A DNA stretch of 61,693 nt from Alistipes senegalensis (lineage in GTDB: Bacteria; Bacteroidota; Bacteroidia; Bacteroidales; Rikenellaceae): NCBI GenBank assembly GCA_023665825.1, contig JAMPDE010000001.1, positions 64,544 through 126,236 on the forward strand. Reading direction: 5' to 3'. Both the position numbers and the translations under genes were made by a program. Every line of letters begins with the position of its first letter. Position 1 is the stretch's first letter. The notes under the pieces are model-generated. The model did not search any database and was not told where the DNA came from. It saw only the letters and a program-made list of their open reading frames with translations. This document shows, one piece after another, positions 4,148-61,693 of the stretch.

Positions 4148-6154
4148 ATGGAAGAACAGAAACCCAATATCTCGCTGCCCGAAAACGCCTATCGGGAACT
4201 CCGTGCGGGCGAAACCTACACGCCGCTGATGCCCGCTTCGACCTCGCCGCGCGAGGTAACGCCCTACTCGGTTATCATGGGTGTGGTGATGGCCATCGTA
4301 TTCTCGGCCGCCGCCGCATTTCTCGGACTGAAAGTCGGACAGGTTTTCGAGGCCGCGATTCCGATCGCCATCATCGCCGTAGGCATGGGCAACGTGCTGG
4401 GCAAGAAGAACATGCTCGGACAGAATGTCATTATCCAGTCGATCGGCGCTTCGTCGGGCGTCATCGTCGCCGGAGCCATTTTCACGCTGCCGGCCCTCTA
4501 CATTCTCGGGCTGGACGCCGCATTCTGGCAGGTGTTCCTCTCGTCGCTGTTCGGCGGACTGCTGGGTATTCTGCTGTTGATTCCGTTCCGCAAATACTTC
4601 GTCAAGGAGATGCACGGCAAATACCCGTTCCCCGAAGCTACGGCCACGACCGAAGTGCTCGTATCGGGCGAAAAGGGCGGCAACCAAGCCAAACTGCTGG
4701 CCGTCGCGGGACTCGTGGGCGGGCTCTACGACTTCGCGGTCGGCACGTTCGGGCTGTGGACCGAATCGGTTTCGACCCGCATCTGCACATGGGGACAAGT
4801 GGCAGCCGATAAGTTCAAGGTCGTATTCGGCCTGAACACCTCCGCCGCCGTGCTCGGTCTGGGCTACATCATCGGACTGAAATACGCCATGATTATCACG
4901 GCCGGTTCGTGTTTAGTGTGGTTCCTCATCGTGCCGCTCGTCGGTTCGCTCGCCGAGAGCATCGACCCTGCCGCAATGGCTTCGCTTTTGGGCGTGACGC
5001 GCGCCGACCTGCTGGCCGACCCGCAGGCATTGTTCACGCCCGAAAATCTTTTCGCATTCATCGGCAAACCGATCGGCATCGGCGGCATCGCGATGGCCGG
5101 CATCATCGGCATCGTCCGCCAGTCGAGCATCATCCGGCAGGCCGTAGGGCTCGCCGTATCGGAGTTCGGCGGCAAGGGGGGGGGTGTAGCCGCTGCGACC
5201 GAACGCACGCAGCGCGACCTCTCGATGAAGCGCGTGCTCTCGTTCCTCATCGCCACGCTGGTCTGCGTCTTCGTTTTCTTCCACTTCGGATTGCTGGACG
5301 GCTGGGTGCAGTCCGTCACCGCGATTCTCATCGTCTTCGTCATCGCGTTCCTCTTCACCACCGTCGCAGCCAATGCTATCGCTATCGTCGGCACGAATCC
5401 CGTGTCGGGCATGACGCTGATGACGCTGATTCTGGCGTCGCTCGTACTGGCGAGCGTCGGACTGAACGGCACGACCGGCATGACCGCTGCCCTGATTATC
5501 GGCGGCGTGGTCTGCACGGCCCTTTCGATGGCCGGCGGATTCATCACCGACCTCAAAATCGGCTACTGGCTCGGCACGACGCCGCGCAAGCAGGAAGCAT
5601 GGAAATTCTTGGGCACGTTCGTCGCCGCTGCCACCGTCGCAGGCGTGATGATCATCCTCAACAAAACGTTCGGCTTCGTCGGCGAGGGTGCGCTGGTCGC
5701 ACCGCAAGCCAATGCGATGGCGGCGGTCATCCAACCGCTGATGACGGGCGGACAAACCCCTTGGATGCTCTACTTCTGCGGCGCGGCATTGGCTCTGGTA
5801 CTCACCTCGATAGGCGTTCCGGCACTGGCTTTCGCGCTGGGCATGTTCATCCCGATGGAACTGAACGCCCCGCTCGTCGTGGGCGGTCTGATCGCGTGGT
5901 TCGTATCGAACCGCTCGCAGGATAAGGAGCTGAACAAGGCCCGTTTCGATCGCGGTACGCTGATTGCGTCGGGATTCATCGCCGGAGGTGCGCTGATGGG
6001 CGTCGTGAGCGCGCTGCTCAAGTTCTTGGAGGTCGACTGGTTCCTCTCGGGCTGGGCATCGTCGAACGCCGCCGAATGGACGGGCCTCGCGATGTACCTC
6101 GCGCTGGCCATCTATATGACGTGGCACACGCTGCAAGCGAAAAAAGAAGAATAA
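4148..6154 (+). CDS. OPT family oligopeptide transporter
   Basis: A 668-residue inner-membrane transporter with about 14-16 hydrophobic segments, typical of the OPT family, which imports small peptides or metal chelates by proton symport. The N-terminus has the characteristic region around YSVIMGVVMA and GLKVGQVFEAAIP, and a membrane-embedded loop carries GKYPFPEATA. It is followed after one base by a 64-residue membrane protein, then by pepT, suggesting that imported tripeptides are hydrolysed by a co-expressed peptidase. A run of nine G at 5176-5184 encodes Gly-Gly-Gly near residue 344. Slippage there would truncate the protein (see findings). The exact substrate is unknown. Confidence 0.9.
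   Translation: MEEQKPNISLPENAYRELRAGETYTPLMPASTSPREVTPYSVIMGVVMAIVFSAAAAFLGLKVGQVFEAAIPIAIIAVGMGNVLGKKNMLGQNVIIQSIGASSGVIVAGAIFTLPALYILGLDAAFWQVFLSSLFGGLLGILLLIPFRKYFVKEMHGKYPFPEATATTEVLVSGEKGGNQAKLLAVAGLVGGLYDFAVGTFGLWTESVSTRICTWGQVAADKFKVVFGLNTSAAVLGLGYIIGLKYAMIITAGSCLVWFLIVPLVGSLAESIDPAAMASLLGVTRADLLADPQALFTPENLFAFIGKPIGIGGIAMAGIIGIVRQSSIIRQAVGLAVSEFGGKGGGVAAATERTQRDLSMKRVLSFLIATLVCVFVFFHFGLLDGWVQSVTAILIVFVIAFLFTTVAANAIAIVGTNPVSGMTLMTLILASLVLASVGLNGTTGMTAALIIGGVVCTALSMAGGFITDLKIGYWLGTTPRKQEAWKFLGTFVAAATVAGVMIILNKTFGFVGEGALVAPQANAMAAVIQPLMTGGQTPWMLYFCGAALALVLTSIGVPALAFALGMFIPMELNAPLVVGGLIAWFVSNRSQDKELNKARFDRGTLIASGFIAGGALMGVVSALLKFLEVDWFLSGWASSNAAEWTGLAMYLALAIYMTWHTLQAKKEE
5176..5184 (+). 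repeat. Nine-G homopolymer inside the OPT gene
   Basis: Nine consecutive G encode the end of a Lys codon and three Gly codons. One-base slippage would create an early stop (GTG TAG in the -1 frame), so the tract could switch expression. Confidence 0.7.
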
Positions 6155-57767: not shown

Positions 57768-59012
57768 CTATCGCTCGTCCTTGTCGTCCTCGAAAGGCAT
57801 CGTCCAACGGGGCAGGAAATGCTCCTTGATGACGGCCTTGCGGTAATTGCCGGAAAAGTCGAAGTATTTTTTCAGCGGCGATTTCTTGAATTGCGCCTGC
57901 AACAGGCGGAACGCCTTGAAGTGGATGAAATGGCCGCAATAGGAGTTCAGCACGGCGCGAATCTCGGTCAGCCGCGTGTAGGCGACCGCTCCGTGCCGGC
58001 ATTCGGCTTCCAGCTGGCTCATGCGCACGTGGAAGCGTTTGACCGACGATTTGGTGGCGTAGCGCCGGTAGGGTTTGACGTAAGCACCGAGAAAGGCCAC
58101 CCCGTAATTGTAGGGTTGGAGGACGATTTTCTTGGGATGCAGCGTGAGGTGCAGCTCCGACTGCAAAAACTCCTTCAAACGCACGATCAGCTCTTCGAGA
58201 TAGCGCCGGTCGGGATGGATGATGTAGAAATCGTCGACGTAGCGGCCGTAATAGCGGCAATGCAGCTCGCGCTTGACGAACTGGTCGAAGCGGTCGAGAA
58301 AGATGTTGCTGAACAGCTGCGATGTGATGTCGCCGATGGCCAGCCCGACACCTTCGGGGGTGTTGAAGAGGCTTTTCGAGGCGGGCAGGCCGTCCCAGTC
58401 GGAGGCGTGGCCCAGTACGTAGCAGCCGTCCGTCGGATTGCGGAACAGAATCAAGCTGATAAGGTAGTCAATCAATTCGCGGTCGAGCTTGTCGCACCAG
58501 CGCTGGCCGTCGGCCGCAGTTTTTTTCCAGCAGCGGTCGAGGCTCTGCATCAGCACGCGGTGCAGGATGCGTTTGTCGATGCTCATGAAATAGCCGCGCA
58601 GGTCGAGTTTCAGTACATAGGCCATGCGGGTGTAGTTGCGGGTGCAGCTGCGCAGGTTGTGTTGCAGGCGCTCGATGCCGACGAGCACGCCCTTGCCCTC
58701 GCGGCAGGAGTAGCTGTCGTAGATCATGCGCGCCTCGAACAGCGGGGCGATGTAATTGTACAGCAGACGGCACACGACGCGGTGTGCGAAAGGCGAAGCG
58801 AAAATTTCGCGTTTGACCGGCACGTCCGTGATGAAACAGATGGCCGGATTGGGACGGTACGTCCGGGCGACGATGCGATTGCAAAGCTCGACCAGATTGT
58901 GCTCGAAATCGAACTCGAATTTCAACTGGCTGCGCGTGTTGCGTTTGTGTTTGCGCGTGTCGAAATAGGCCCGAAACAGATCGTCCAGCAGTTCGGAATA
59001 GCTTTTTTTCAT
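57768..59012 (-). CDS. DGR reverse transcriptase
   Basis: A 414-residue reverse transcriptase from ATG 59012 (a TTG at 59036 is also in frame). It has group-II-intron-like motifs of the DGR clade: LKLDLRGYFMSIDK (residues 134-147, catalytic Asp137), LAIGDITSQLFSNIFLD (224-240), YGRYVDDFYIIH (255-266, catalytic Asp pair) and VAFLGAYVKPYRR (305-317). The IGxxxSQ form in place of QGxxxSP is the known DGR signature. With Avd it copies template-repeat RNA into cDNA with errors at adenines. It lies directly downstream of two template repeats on the same strand. There is no maturase or endonuclease domain, so it is not a group II intron. Confidence 0.95.
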   Translation of the reverse strand: MKKSYSELLDDLFRAYFDTRKHKRNTRSQLKFEFDFEHNLVELCNRIVARTYRPNPAICFITDVPVKREIFASPFAHRVVCRLLYNYIAPLFEARMIYDSYSCREGKGVLVGIERLQHNLRSCTRNYTRMAYVLKLDLRGYFMSIDKRILHRVLMQSLDRCWKKTAADGQRWCDKLDRELIDYLISLILFRNPTDGCYVLGHASDWDGLPASKSLFNTPEGVGLAIGDITSQLFSNIFLDRFDQFVKRELHCRYYGRYVDDFYIIHPDRRYLEELIVRLKEFLQSELHLTLHPKKIVLQPYNYGVAFLGAYVKPYRRYATKSSVKRFHVRMSQLEAECRHGAVAYTRLTEIRAVLNSYCGHFIHFKAFRLLQAQFKKSPLKKYFDFSGNYRKAVIKEHFLPRWTMPFEDDKDER

Positions 59013-59044
59013 AAATGCAGATTCTCTATTCAACAAGCAGCCGT

Positions 59045-59248
59045 AAATACTCGGACACAGCGCACCGAGAAGCCGTTCGCCCGGTTGTTGTTGTTGACCG
59101 GGTTCACTCCGCCGGAGTTGAAGTTCAAGTTCCCCGCGTTGACCTCCGACGAGTACGGCGAGCTACTCCAGTAGTTGCCATTCTCCCCGACGTTCGAGAC
59201 AGCCCCCGTCGAACTATTGAGGTATCCCGCAGCCGGCAGGTAACGCAT
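59045..59248 (-). repeat. DGR template repeat TR-A (RT-proximal)
   Basis: A 204-base block, read on the minus strand, ends 33 bases before the RT ATG. In the target frame it is open and unusually rich in AAY codons (14 Asn of 68), the classical mutable codons of DGR templates. Positions 59050-59134 align without gaps to the target's variable repeat at 61609-61693. Seven bases differ, and all seven are adenines here (20 of the 85 template bases are A; none of the 65 other bases differ). The 3' junctions differ (CGAGTATTT here, CGAGAATAAG in the target), as expected for template and acceptor initiation sites. The small open frame here is not a gene. Confidence 0.92.
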
Positions 59249-59384
59249 GAGAAATGTAACCGCTTGCTAAATTGGCGAAAGGGATTTCCGAAAGTAACGA
59301 ATCGGGAAAACCTTTCCGCAAATTGGTTTTTCAATACCGACGACCGCGCGACCGCCGCCCGCAGGAGACGATAGCGACCCGTTA

Positions 59385-59453
59385 CGCCGCCGGTGGGTTA
59401 CTGAATTTACAAGATACGCTCCCGCAGGTCTGTGACCGTGCGGAACTCCGATC
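59385..59453 (-). promoter_or_regulatory. Conserved block upstream of TR-A
   Basis: About 69 bases closely matching 59886-59955 upstream of TR-B, at the same relative position. Both contain CGTATCTT (minus strand), weakly like a TAnnTTTG box. The conserved block could be the template-RNA promoter or its 5' structured region. Confidence 0.45.
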
Positions 59454-59534
59454 CTGCTCTGCCTGAATAGAGAAGGTCTTGCATTCAGTCGCAATGAAAT
59501 CGAAAAAATAAGTCTTGTTTCCGGCCGCTCGCGC

Positions 59535-59738
59535 AAATACTCGGACACAGCGCACCGATAAGCCATTCGCCCGGTTCGTTGCGTTGACCGGGTTCACTCC
59601 ACCGGAGTTGAAGTTCAAGTTCCCCGCGTTGACCTCCGTCGAGTACGGCGAACTACTCCAGTAGTTGCCCTCTGTCCCGACGTTCGAGACAGCCCCCGTC
59701 TCACGGTGCAGGTAGCCCGCAGCCGGCAGGTAACGCAA
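59535..59738 (-). repeat. Second, diverged DGR template-like repeat TR-B
   Basis: 204 bases aligning gap-free with TR-A (offset 490) with 23 differences, 14 of them at non-adenines of TR-A. The AAC-rich stretch at codons 40-44 and 49 is unmutated, and the 3' junction is the template type (CGAGTATTT). It is therefore a template copy rather than a mutagenised variable repeat. It has 10 Asn codons against 14 in TR-A; codons 11-13, 22-23 and 53-54 have lost their adenine-rich form. It is not the source of the variable repeat at 61609-61693, which differs from it at several non-adenines. It may serve a target outside the window or be decaying. Confidence 0.8.
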
Positions 59739-59885
59739 AGAAAAGAAGTAACCGCTTGCTGAATCGGCCGAAGGACGACACGCCGGCGGAAAATGCCGGA
59801 CGCCGAACCTCGACGCGAACCGATTTGAGTACCGGCGGAGCGGCGGACAACGCCGTCGGACGACGGGCGCCGCAACCGATTTACG

Positions 59886-59955
59886 GCCGCCGGAGGGTTA
59901 CTGAATTTGCGAAGATACGCTTCCGACGGTGTCGTGACCGTGCGGAACTCCGATC
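59886..59955 (-). promoter_or_regulatory. Conserved block upstream of TR-B
   Basis: Counterpart of 59385-59453. With the shared GTAACCGCTTGCT motif beside each template's 5' side (about 59257 and 59748), it shows that a cassette of about 490 bases, not just the template, was duplicated in tandem. Confidence 0.5.
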
Positions 59956-59999: not shown

Positions 60000-60416
60000 T
60001 CATACGCCTTCCGTCGGATCGTCGTCCGGCGGGAGGGTGGAAGAAGCTACGTCGCGCACCCGTTTGAGCGTTTTGGCATGCCAAGCGGAGAGCTGCTTGG
60101 AAACGGACTCGACCTCGACGGCCAGCGTCTGGAAGAGTTCGGGGTTGATGTGGTGCAGATCGAACAGGATCCGAAACCGCGCCTTGATTCCCGGCAGCAA
60201 TTCGCGCGCCTGCCGCAAGGGGGTCACCTTGCGCTCGTCGGAGATGTAATGCGCCTTGTAAATCAAGACGAGAATCTCCAGAATGTCCTTTTTCAACGTC
60301 TCGACCAGCGTGAACTTGATGTCGCGCGGGACACTGCCGATGCTCTTGTCGCGGTAGATGTGCTGCAAGAGGTCGTAAGTGGCCTTGTAGACGGGCAAGT
60401 GATCGTATTCGGCCAT
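60000..60416 (-). CDS. avd: Avd-like DGR accessory protein
   Basis: A 138-residue all-alpha protein of the four-helix-bundle type found beside DGR reverse transcriptases (Avd, accessory variability determinant; related to 23S rRNA intervening-sequence proteins). Conserved-looking features are YKATYDLLQHIYRD near residue 10, a KFTLVETLKKDILEILVLIYKA helix of basic character, and a C-terminal helix ending before a disordered acidic tail. In characterised systems Avd forms a barrel-like pentamer that binds RT and template RNA and is required for mutagenic cDNA synthesis. It starts 5 bases after the MutS-like gene's stop, on the same strand, and precedes the template cassettes. Confidence 0.88.
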   Translation of the reverse strand: MAEYDHLPVYKATYDLLQHIYRDKSIGSVPRDIKFTLVETLKKDILEILVLIYKAHYISDERKVTPLRQARELLPGIKARFRILFDLHHINPELFQTLAVEVESVSKQLSAWHAKTLKRVRDVASSTLPPDDDPTEGV

Positions 60417-60421
60417 AGACG

Positions 60422-61225
60422 TCAGATTTTAAGGAGTTGTTTTTTCAATTCGGCGATGAACATCATGCACTCCATCGGGGTTTTGTCCGCCACCTCGAAT
60501 TTGCGCAGGGCATCGAGGCACTGCTCGGCCGAACCCGCAACGGGGCCACCGGAATCGACATTCGCGTCGGCAGTTTCCCGAACGGAACGGGTGAACCAGC
60601 GACCCAAACGCGTCCACCAATGCGGACGCGATACTTCGACGACAGAAACCGCACGGTCGGCGGGTGCCGGGTCTTCGGCGAAAGATCCGGCGGAAATTTC
60701 GGCGGATGTTTCGCAGGAAGTTCCGGCGGCCGCCGGGCGCGGGATGGTGATGCTGATGGGAAGTGCGGATTTCCAAGCGCGGAAATCGCTTTCGACGATC
60801 GGACGCGGCGCGGCGAAAACCATGCGCGTGGCCGATGACGCGTGCGGCACGGCCGATGCTCCCGCTGCGGAAGCGGCGGGGTCAGCGGACGCGACGCCCT
60901 CGTCGACGGCCGACAACGAAACGGCCTGCGCATCGGAAATGCAGGAATCCGATGAAGCGGCGGCGGCAGTGCCAGCGGCGTCGGAAATGTCGAGACGTTC
61001 GAGGCCCGCGAGGATACGGTCGGCCGCAATGGCCGGGAAACCTACCGATACGATGTCGCCACCAGCGAGCGTTTTCAGGATTTTGCGGGTGGGTTTGAAT
61101 GCACGGACTTGGGTGCACAAAACGTAGGCGGAACGCTCGTAGGCTTTCCAGAAAAGTCCTTCGCGGTACAAAACGACGCGATCGAAGTTGTCGGCTTCGG
61201 CGGCTATGAGTTGACGGCTCGTCAT
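60422..61225 (-). CDS. Putative MutS-like (MSL) DGR accessory protein
   Basis: A 267-residue protein. Residues about 8-75 (DNFDRVVLYREGLFWKAYER, AGGDIVSVGFPAIAADRIL) resemble the mismatch-recognition domain I of MutS, whose F-x-E lesion-reading region corresponds to the EGLFWKAYE segment. About 76-215 is a low-complexity Ala/Ser/Pro-rich linker. The last 35 residues (AEQCLDALRKFEVADKTPME and onward) form a helical tail. There is no ATPase domain, so it is not a repair MutS. A MutS-like accessory gene has been described beside some DGR RT genes. A role in recognising cDNA:DNA mismatches during mutagenic homing is plausible but inferred. It is coupled to avd (5-base gap). Confidence 0.65.
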   Translation of the reverse strand: MTSRQLIAAEADNFDRVVLYREGLFWKAYERSAYVLCTQVRAFKPTRKILKTLAGGDIVSVGFPAIAADRILAGLERLDISDAAGTAAAASSDSCISDAQAVSLSAVDEGVASADPAASAAGASAVPHASSATRMVFAAPRPIVESDFRAWKSALPISITIPRPAAAGTSCETSAEISAGSFAEDPAPADRAVSVVEVSRPHWWTRLGRWFTRSVRETADANVDSGGPVAGSAEQCLDALRKFEVADKTPMECMMFIAELKKQLLKI

Positions 61226-61603: not shown

Positions 61604-61693
61604 TTATTCTCGGACACAGCGCACCGAGAAGCCGTGCGCCCGGTTGCCGTTGTTGACCGGGTTCACTCCGCCGGAGAGGAAGTACAAGTACCC
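61604..61693 (-). CDS. DGR target protein, C-terminal end only (gene runs off the window)
   Basis: Only the last 29 codons are present; the stop is TAA at 61604-61606. The peptide ends GGVNPVNNGNRAHGFSVRC followed by VRE, the end of a C-type-lectin-like/FISUMP domain as in many DGR targets. It is itself the variable repeat: codons matching template Asn 40, 42, 44, 54 and 58 read Tyr, Tyr, Leu, Gly and His, each explained only by changes at template adenines. The gene starts beyond 61693, so signal peptide and other domains are unseen. It is probably a surface-displayed binding protein. Confidence 0.85.
   Translation of the reverse strand, partial: GYLYFLSGGVNPVNNGNRAHGFSVRCVRE
61609..61693 (-). 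repeat. DGR variable repeat (partial)
   Basis: 85 bases aligning gap-free with template 59050-59134. There are seven substitutions (plus-strand positions in the window's text T to G, C, C, A, G, A, A), all at template adenines. The 3' boundary lies at the CGAG just before the stop codon. The 5' part is outside the window. Confidence 0.92.

Follow-up and report, generated by a model that had tools for sequence, protein, structure and literature searches.

The stretch of DNA analysed here very probably carries a DGR in which several template-RNA genes serve one reverse transcriptase (RT) and, where targets were counted, one fimbria-type target, with part of the templates acting in trans. We further propose, as the probable though less secure extension of this reading, that gut bacteria akin to Alistipes and Rikenella have a library of up to dozens of cassettes, each consisting of an RT-7 RNA and a template and lying in arrays or as solo copies dispersed over the chromosome. 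Through mutagenic retrohoming any of these could overwrite a single target of fimbria type, changing the framework of the protein and randomising chosen residues. Such a library would be kept by selection on a protein that the templates apparently do not express themselves, and its cassettes may spread as RNA-borne units. The textbook DGR has a single template per mutator and a fixed map of mutable residues. By its features the present system is a DGR, of a multi-template variant that was not found described in the literature searched.

Two templates and probably one target in Alistipes senegalensis

The window, a stretch of 61,693 nt, had been read from its sequence alone as holding two tandem, diverged template repeats served by one DGR RT, and our analysis agrees: the repeats lie at 59042-59247 and 59532-59737 and measure 206 nt each. 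Read along the minus strand, the target gene comes first, as an end stub running to 61693; it is followed by an ORF of 267 aa, one resembling Avd, the two cassettes (B before A) and the RT. The features are:

57768..59036, minus strand: DGR reverse transcriptase, 422 aa, TTG start (ATG at 59012); Pfam RVT_1 at 43.5 bits, cut-off 29.6
59042..59247, minus strand: template repeat TR-A, in frame PAAGYLNSSTGAVSNVG...NNNNRANGFSVRCVR; a direct repeat that fits the 3' part of the target's variable repeat
59249..59452, minus strand: RT-7 RNA (RF03028) immediately preceding TR-A in cassette A; scores 123.1 bits against a gathering score of 116.8
59396..59402, minus strand: 5' arm AGTAACC of the RT-7 closing helix, cassette A; partner 59256-59261; from the structure line and covariation
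59532..59737, minus strand: template repeat TR-B, in frame PAAGYLHRETGAVSNVG...NATNRANGLSVRCVR; a direct repeat, agreeing at 55/55 letters with the variable repeat's 5' end on contig C7
59741..59954, minus strand: RT-7 RNA of cassette B, directly 5' of TR-B; 78.2 bits, E 2e-17, under the gathering score of 116.8
59896..59902, minus strand: 5' arm AGTAACC of the RT-7 closing helix, cassette B; partner 59748-59753; from the structure line and covariation
60000..60416, minus strand: Avd-like accessory protein, 138 aa; similar to Pfam bAvd and NCBIfam DivGenRetAVD, under both cut-offs
60422..61225, minus strand: 267-aa protein between target and Avd, without Pfam or NCBIfam match
61604..61693, minus strand: 3' end of the target gene, a TR-A-like part of the variable repeat and the stop codon; the gene runs on past the scaffold gap

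The RT has the features of the DGR type, with RVT_1 above its cut-off and IGDITSQ in its sequence, which fits (I/V/L)GxxxSQ, the motif of DGR-type RTs. Six NCBIfam families of other RT classes (group II intron, retron and Drt types) scored far under their cut-offs for this protein. The Avd-like protein reached 27.4 bits with bAvd (cut-off 40) and 39.1 bits with DivGenRetAVD (cut-off 80). The 267-aa ORF has a counterpart in an equivalent place of the related locus L025, a 206-aa ORF at 4603-5223 that is similar by eye. Elsewhere in the window genome there is a second, distant RT-like ORF (L008, L009; G000:C11:197968-198666), with 25-34% identity.

A direct-repeat search and base comparison gave 89% identity between TR-A and TR-B at a spacing of 490 nt. 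The 23 differences comprise nine with A in TR-A, six with A in TR-B and eight with A in neither, so the earlier description of them as mostly non-adenine is fair from the side of either template and is not strictly true. Their clustering at codons 11-13, 22-23 and 53-54 was borne out (codons 7-9, 18-19 and 49-50 when numbered from PAAGYL). The number of A's at codon positions 1-2, which is 37 in TR-A and 33 in TR-B, is altered by these clustered differences. The AAC run, which the sequence-only reading took to be unmutated in TR-B, is in fact changed, from AAC AAC AAC AAC in TR-A to AAC GCA ACG AAC in TR-B.

The window terminates at a 100-N scaffold gap within the variable repeat of the target, and because this gap cuts the repeat, the target was judged from other contigs. 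Up to the stop codon, the window end has 0 non-A mismatches to TR-A, with 7/20 A's changed, and 6 non-A mismatches to TR-B; with TR-A it thus forms a pair of template and variable repeat differing at template adenines, as is characteristic of a DGR. On contig C7 of the same genome, 6 kb in length, fimbrillin-like genes are accompanied by a reading frame of 690 aa with Pfam DUF4906. This frame leaves the contig end within the variable repeat and seems to encode the final, perhaps tip-type, component of a fimbrial operon. The final 54-55 nt of C7 equal TR-B exactly, TR-B-only letters included, with 0/8 A's changed, whereas TR-A departs from it by 5 mismatches plus one gap column. Upstream of the target on C7 (L010, 2126-6027) are at least two fimbrillin-like genes (Mfa_like_1, Mfa_like_2) and a third ORF.

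In the sister species G062, whose RT is 95-96% identical to the window RT, orthologues of both templates, TR-A' and TR-B', are present. An orthologue of the C7 target gene lies on contig L096 of this species and shares 70% identity with it across 698 aa. Its end, together with the sequence downstream, aligns with the window end at 88.7% identity across 239 nt. Because L096 carries both on one contig, C7 and the window end most likely belong to one target gene, on the basis of this single sister-species contig. The complete variable repeat of G062 has a TR-B'-like 5' half and a TR-A'-like 3' half; the window genome has, on two contigs, a TR-B-like 5' end (C7) and a TR-A-like 3' end (window). 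Each of the two targets bears template letters of its own species, and therefore they were probably written separately. The neighbouring TR-B and TR-A are, as far as can be read from these contigs, a template library each member of which has left its mark on the target, and the proposal that two templates with different mutability maps are in use gains from the finding that both seem to write one target. A TR-B without any matching target had been named as the sign of a dead duplicate; the C7 match and the TR-B'-like 5' half in G062 are the opposite.

RT-7 RNA upstream of the templates

The upstream block had been reported to be duplicated along with the template, and an RT-7 RNA is indeed found in both copies. 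Comparison of the loci shows a cassette made of a predicted RT-7 structured RNA of about 145-300 nt followed by a template repeat, about 180-206 nt long, whose reading frame gives a C-terminal domain of fimbria type. The gathering cut-off of 116.8 bits is reached by cassette A and missed by cassette B and the scanned solo cassettes; eight cassettes preceding solo templates, from six solo loci scanned, scored 39-94 bits. Judged by their significant scores and equivalent position, cassette B and the scanned solo blocks are divergent relatives and not curated RT-7 members. In both window cassettes the 5' half accordingly belongs or is related to Rfam RF03028, an entry that gives no function.

According to the RT-7 structure line, the closing helix (AGTAACC with GGTTAC) terminates just 5' of the template. 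The 5' motif was located in 161 of 171 distinct template cassettes; all seven pairs were standard in 107 of these 161, against a mean of 74.4 and a maximum of 85 with shuffled partners, and exchanges were observed between C-G and T-A at pair 3, A-T and G-C at pair 5, and T-A and C-G at pair 6. Such covariation, with 3' arms chosen for best pairing, supports the predicted closing helix only moderately. In a genus scan with strict filters and at most 13 candidates scored per genome, RT-7 was present in 17/180 genomes, which are the 17 with the highest RT scores. The repeated joining of RT-7 to a DGR template suggests that the template RNA has RT-7 as its 5' domain, and we infer that this domain is the one recognised by the system.

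Template arrays, solo templates and their targets

Relatives of the RT were found at 34 loci in genome contigs, and 30/180 genus genomes had a match at E <= 1e-50. The relatives are mostly MAGs, with one genome per species, and some loci are one genome under two labels as judged by contig and coordinates (G199/G062, G082/G063 and G204/G061). The comparison of relatives revealed a range from 1 to about 22 templates upstream of the RT:

G061: 5 and 3 templates in its two DGRs
G007, G076: 8 templates each
G078, G009: 11 templates each
G177: 14 templates
G012: about 22 templates, with a long duplication
G063, G196, G176, G083: 2-5 templates, counts partly limited by contig ends
four Rikenella MAGs: 4-15 templates
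G002, G070, G033, G080, L033, L034: 1 template

The RT tree contains three groups of multi-template loci, with several deep branches weakly supported. By these counts the window lies at the small end of a range of multi-template systems, in which templates often appear to act in trans. In G012, two blocks of the array (L130, 1391-4942 and 8611-12645) are near-identical copies with equal spacing, which would be either a recent segmental duplication or an effect of assembly.

Template-domain profile matches were not confined to the arrays. They numbered 89 in G177, 47 in G078, 22 in G076, 20 in G007, 19 in G061, 13 in G083 (a genome 55% complete), 10 each in the window genome and G062, 4 in G063, 3 in G070 and 2 in G002. 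When the matches of G007, G076, G083 and G078 (45 units in the latter) were read, many proved to be solo cassettes that are not part of long genes; their templates stay in frame and have a template-type end, CVQHL or CVQAS; targets read CVQE or CVQN and then stop. An RT-7-like block lies 5' of the solo templates at the loci inspected or scanned. With every match read, the census is 19 templates and 1 target in G007, 21 and 1 in G076, and 12 and 1 in G083, and no target occurs among the 45 units read in G078. Many templates for one target in G007, G076 and G083 fit a library better than parallel systems.

A single solo cassette of G078 type occurs in the window genome itself (C22:182349-182534; L247, 1350-1535); it ends in CVQHL, has an RT-7 score of 35.6 bits and is unlike TR-A and TR-B, which end in CVRV. 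It is possibly a foreign or relic template, or contamination. The solo cassettes L231 and L240, in G007 and G076, have flanking gene sequence in common by eye, and this suggests vertical inheritance of template positions.

We assigned targets outside G078, G009, G012, G176, G196, G063 and three Rikenella MAGs by counting target mismatches at the non-A letters of the best template and of the others. The comparison shows that targets pair with single templates of the arrays in some genomes and with apparently trans-acting solo templates in others (G007, G076, G083, G177 and R. microfusus), where the variable repeat in question lies next to the RT. In G061, array template 3 of 5 has 0 non-A mismatches to the target of the first DGR (others 12-23), and array template 2 of 3 has 0 to that of the second (others 12 and 42). 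The single-template controls G070 and G002 also gave 0. The G007 target is matched by a solo on another contig with 1 non-A mismatch, against at least 23 for the 18 other templates, and the same holds for G083 (a solo on another contig, 1 mismatch; 11 others at least 14; nine target letters being N). For G177 a solo on another contig has 1 mismatch and 16 others at least 36, in a partial set of 17 templates compared out of 89 profile matches; in a genome-wide BLAST the same donor ranked far first, with 97% against 71% identity. The solo donor of G076 has 5 non-A mismatches (20 other templates at least 17), four of them within the first 23 nt and largely fitting another template.

In the isolate Rikenella microfusus DSM 15922, no template was found within 8 kb either side of the RT. 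The donor of its target is a solo about 259 kb away, at NZ_KE386488.1:2146143, with 1 non-A mismatch, 16/48 A's changed (p = 4e-10) and an RT-7 match of 66.4 bits upstream. The lone mismatch in G007, G177 and R. microfusus falls at the 3' junction. We had considered that adjacent array templates must be the donors, and this was rejected in G007, G076, G177 and G083, where array templates have at least 14 non-A mismatches; the donors of G061 are array templates, so that a donor may lie close to the RT or at a distance from it. Mosaics of array templates alone were likewise tested as an explanation of the targets in L131, L135 and L137, and did not account for them.

Template sequences further show purifying selection acting on them as apparent protein sequence. 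Stops in the template frame were found in 0/127 templates, and in 124 and 70 of them in the other frames, in a set drawn by a profile search that may favour open frames. For 24 reciprocal-best between-species template pairs, dN/dS was 0.36 (9 pairs), 0.22 (7) and 0.36 (8). TR-A and TR-A' differ with pN 0.057 and pS 0.154, TR-B and TR-B' with pN 0.036 and pS 0.147. The templates are not the ends of long genes, which points to selection acting through the target that they would write. Two of the 12 templates in G083 (L137 12448 and L263 581) are not domain-like over their first residues; both begin with a common unrelated 5' stretch, PRREKLHKMNVGT in one and nearly identical in the other, and might be read as truncated or recombined.

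Mosaic targets, mechanism and relation to known systems

Four variable repeats resemble two-template mosaics. Alignment of the G062 repeat shows that columns 1-89 fit TR-B' with 2 unexplained letters and columns 90-183 fit TR-A' with none, against 7 mismatches (two of them gap columns) or 10 with a single donor; random changes matched the mosaic cost in 2/20000 trials. The repeat also has an in-frame stop. A third donor was considered and rejected, since among the 10 profile matches of this fragmentary MAG only TR-A' and TR-B' are template-like by the listed frames, the matches on C91, C122 and C167 having been read and those on C141 and C182 left out. By this fit G062 is the firm case of a mosaic, and the window would be its parallel across two contigs. 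In G076, random changes reached the mosaic cost in 0/3000 trials with free choice among the templates compared, and at a switch cost of 3 one donor fits equally well, making the mosaic a weak one. In G066, a Rikenella MAG, the best single donor leaves 12 mismatches, and a solo (5') with an array template (3') leaves 1-3, a cost that random changes reached in 0/1500 trials with free choice among the templates compared; this set is partial (7 distinct templates from 20 BLAST matches), and a better single donor could exist.

In the mechanism that we propose, the cassettes would be transcribed, and the complex of RT and Avd would recognise the RT-7 5' domain, such that any RT-7-template RNA would be copied. 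The RT (with Avd) would randomise adenines while copying, and the cDNA, guided to the target by the 3' end common to the templates, would replace the variable repeat with which the target gene ends, a mutagenic retrohoming that presumably proceeds via an RNA intermediate. Because the 3' junction and much of the framework are common, any template could write one target, near the RT or in trans. A changed template would bring a swapped framework together with a swapped set of mutable residues, and a cDNA that replaces part of the variable repeat, or an RT that jumps between templates, would probably account for the mosaics. These static sequences suggest that template switching may be ongoing.

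It is very unlikely that TR-B and the extra templates are dead, drifting tandem duplicates. TR-B does have the lower RT-7 score (78.2 against 123.1 bits), and tandem duplicates are often transient, but TR-B has TR-B' as its orthologue and few of the differences between them alter an amino acid (pN and pS above), the 5' part of the target fits the TR-B type in both species, and the templates of relatives have dN/dS of 0.22-0.36 and no stops in 127. We rejected a dead TR-B on the selection acting on it and on the TR-B-specific letters in the target. Parallel one-template DGRs that share an RT, with an own target for each template, are only slightly less improbable. DGRs with several TRs and VRs are in print, such as that of Stenotrophomonas SKA14 with two TRs and six VRs in the accessible text of PMC6642488, and G061 has further genes with a related C-terminal domain. 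Those of the G061 genes that were read, however, end in RCVK when compared by ending, and not at the template junction RCVR or CVQ; the full counts of templates to target are 19:1, 21:1 and 12:1 in G007, G076 and G083; and a mosaic target needs two templates on one target.

For the mosaics, ordinary homologous recombination or gene conversion of template DNA, in which the second template is not reverse-transcribed, is also unlikely as an explanation. Silent-cassette gene conversion is common in bacteria, and the G062 breakpoint lies within a stretch common to both templates, but the G062 repeat carries A-specific changes on either side of it, 6 of them in TR-B'-like columns and 11 in TR-A'-like columns, which plain conversion would not yield. 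In the window target the TR-A part, with 7/20 A's changed, speaks in the same direction, and the C7 part, with none changed relative to TR-B, does not discriminate. A better candidate, though still a doubtful one, is that the RT jumps between templates on one transcript over tandem cassettes, in place of two successive homings. The order with TR-B 5' and TR-A 3' in both species is as expected for copying from the 3' end of TR-A, yet successive partial homing yields an identical product, and the two donors of the G066 and G076 mosaics, one in an array and one a solo, lie on different contigs, which makes a common transcript unlikely. The TR-B/TR-A mosaic could thus have come from one transcript, and the solo-plus-array mosaics are unlikely to have done so.

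The library of templates proposed here shares with DGRs of the Bordetella phage BPP-1 type the RT, a putative Avd-like protein, the TR, a VR at the 3' end of the target and adenine-specific changes. It differs in having several to dozens of diverged templates for one target, many of them solo and far from the RT, in the structured RNA 5' of the template, and in a distance of 5 nt from TR-A to the RT frame (29 from the ATG). BPP-1 requires a spacer 3' of its TR. Antigenic variation by silent cassettes is known from pilS of Neisseria and vls of Borrelia. Such systems are alike in a single expressed surface gene, many silent partial donors and mosaic products, and differ in that the donors here would act through an adenine-mutating RT, randomising chosen codons at each transfer. 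In Thiohalocapsa PB-PSB1, according to the accessible part of PMC10907252, a TR at a separate locus agrees with remote targets at every non-adenine, and components act in trans as they appear to do here; that case has one TR and remote targets, whereas ours has many templates, one target, and solos that stand apart from both RT and target. More than one TR per DGR is likewise recorded in PMC6642488, whose accessible text gives counts of TRs and VRs without mention of an RT-7 cassette, a tandem template array, a solo template or a mosaic target. Template arrays, solo trans templates, RT-7 as a DGR RNA domain and mosaic targets were not found in the literature searched, to which most subscription papers and preprints did not belong, including the RT-7 source paper and the 2018 NAR survey of DGRs.

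If the proposal is true, the choice of framework is a second layer of DGR variation that links DGRs mechanistically to silent-cassette antigenic variation, and a role for the RT-7 RNA is suggested. It would also explain template-like sequences that lie far from any RT and are missed by searches limited to RT flanks. Rikenella microfusus DSM 15922 is a cultivated strain suited to a direct test of trans templating. In the same strain, a second variable-repeat-like stretch of another type was observed (L031, 5256-5432, minus strand), and a solo cassette about 1.7 Mb away (L317) matches it in type (L317, L319); the two are possibly a second template-target pair.
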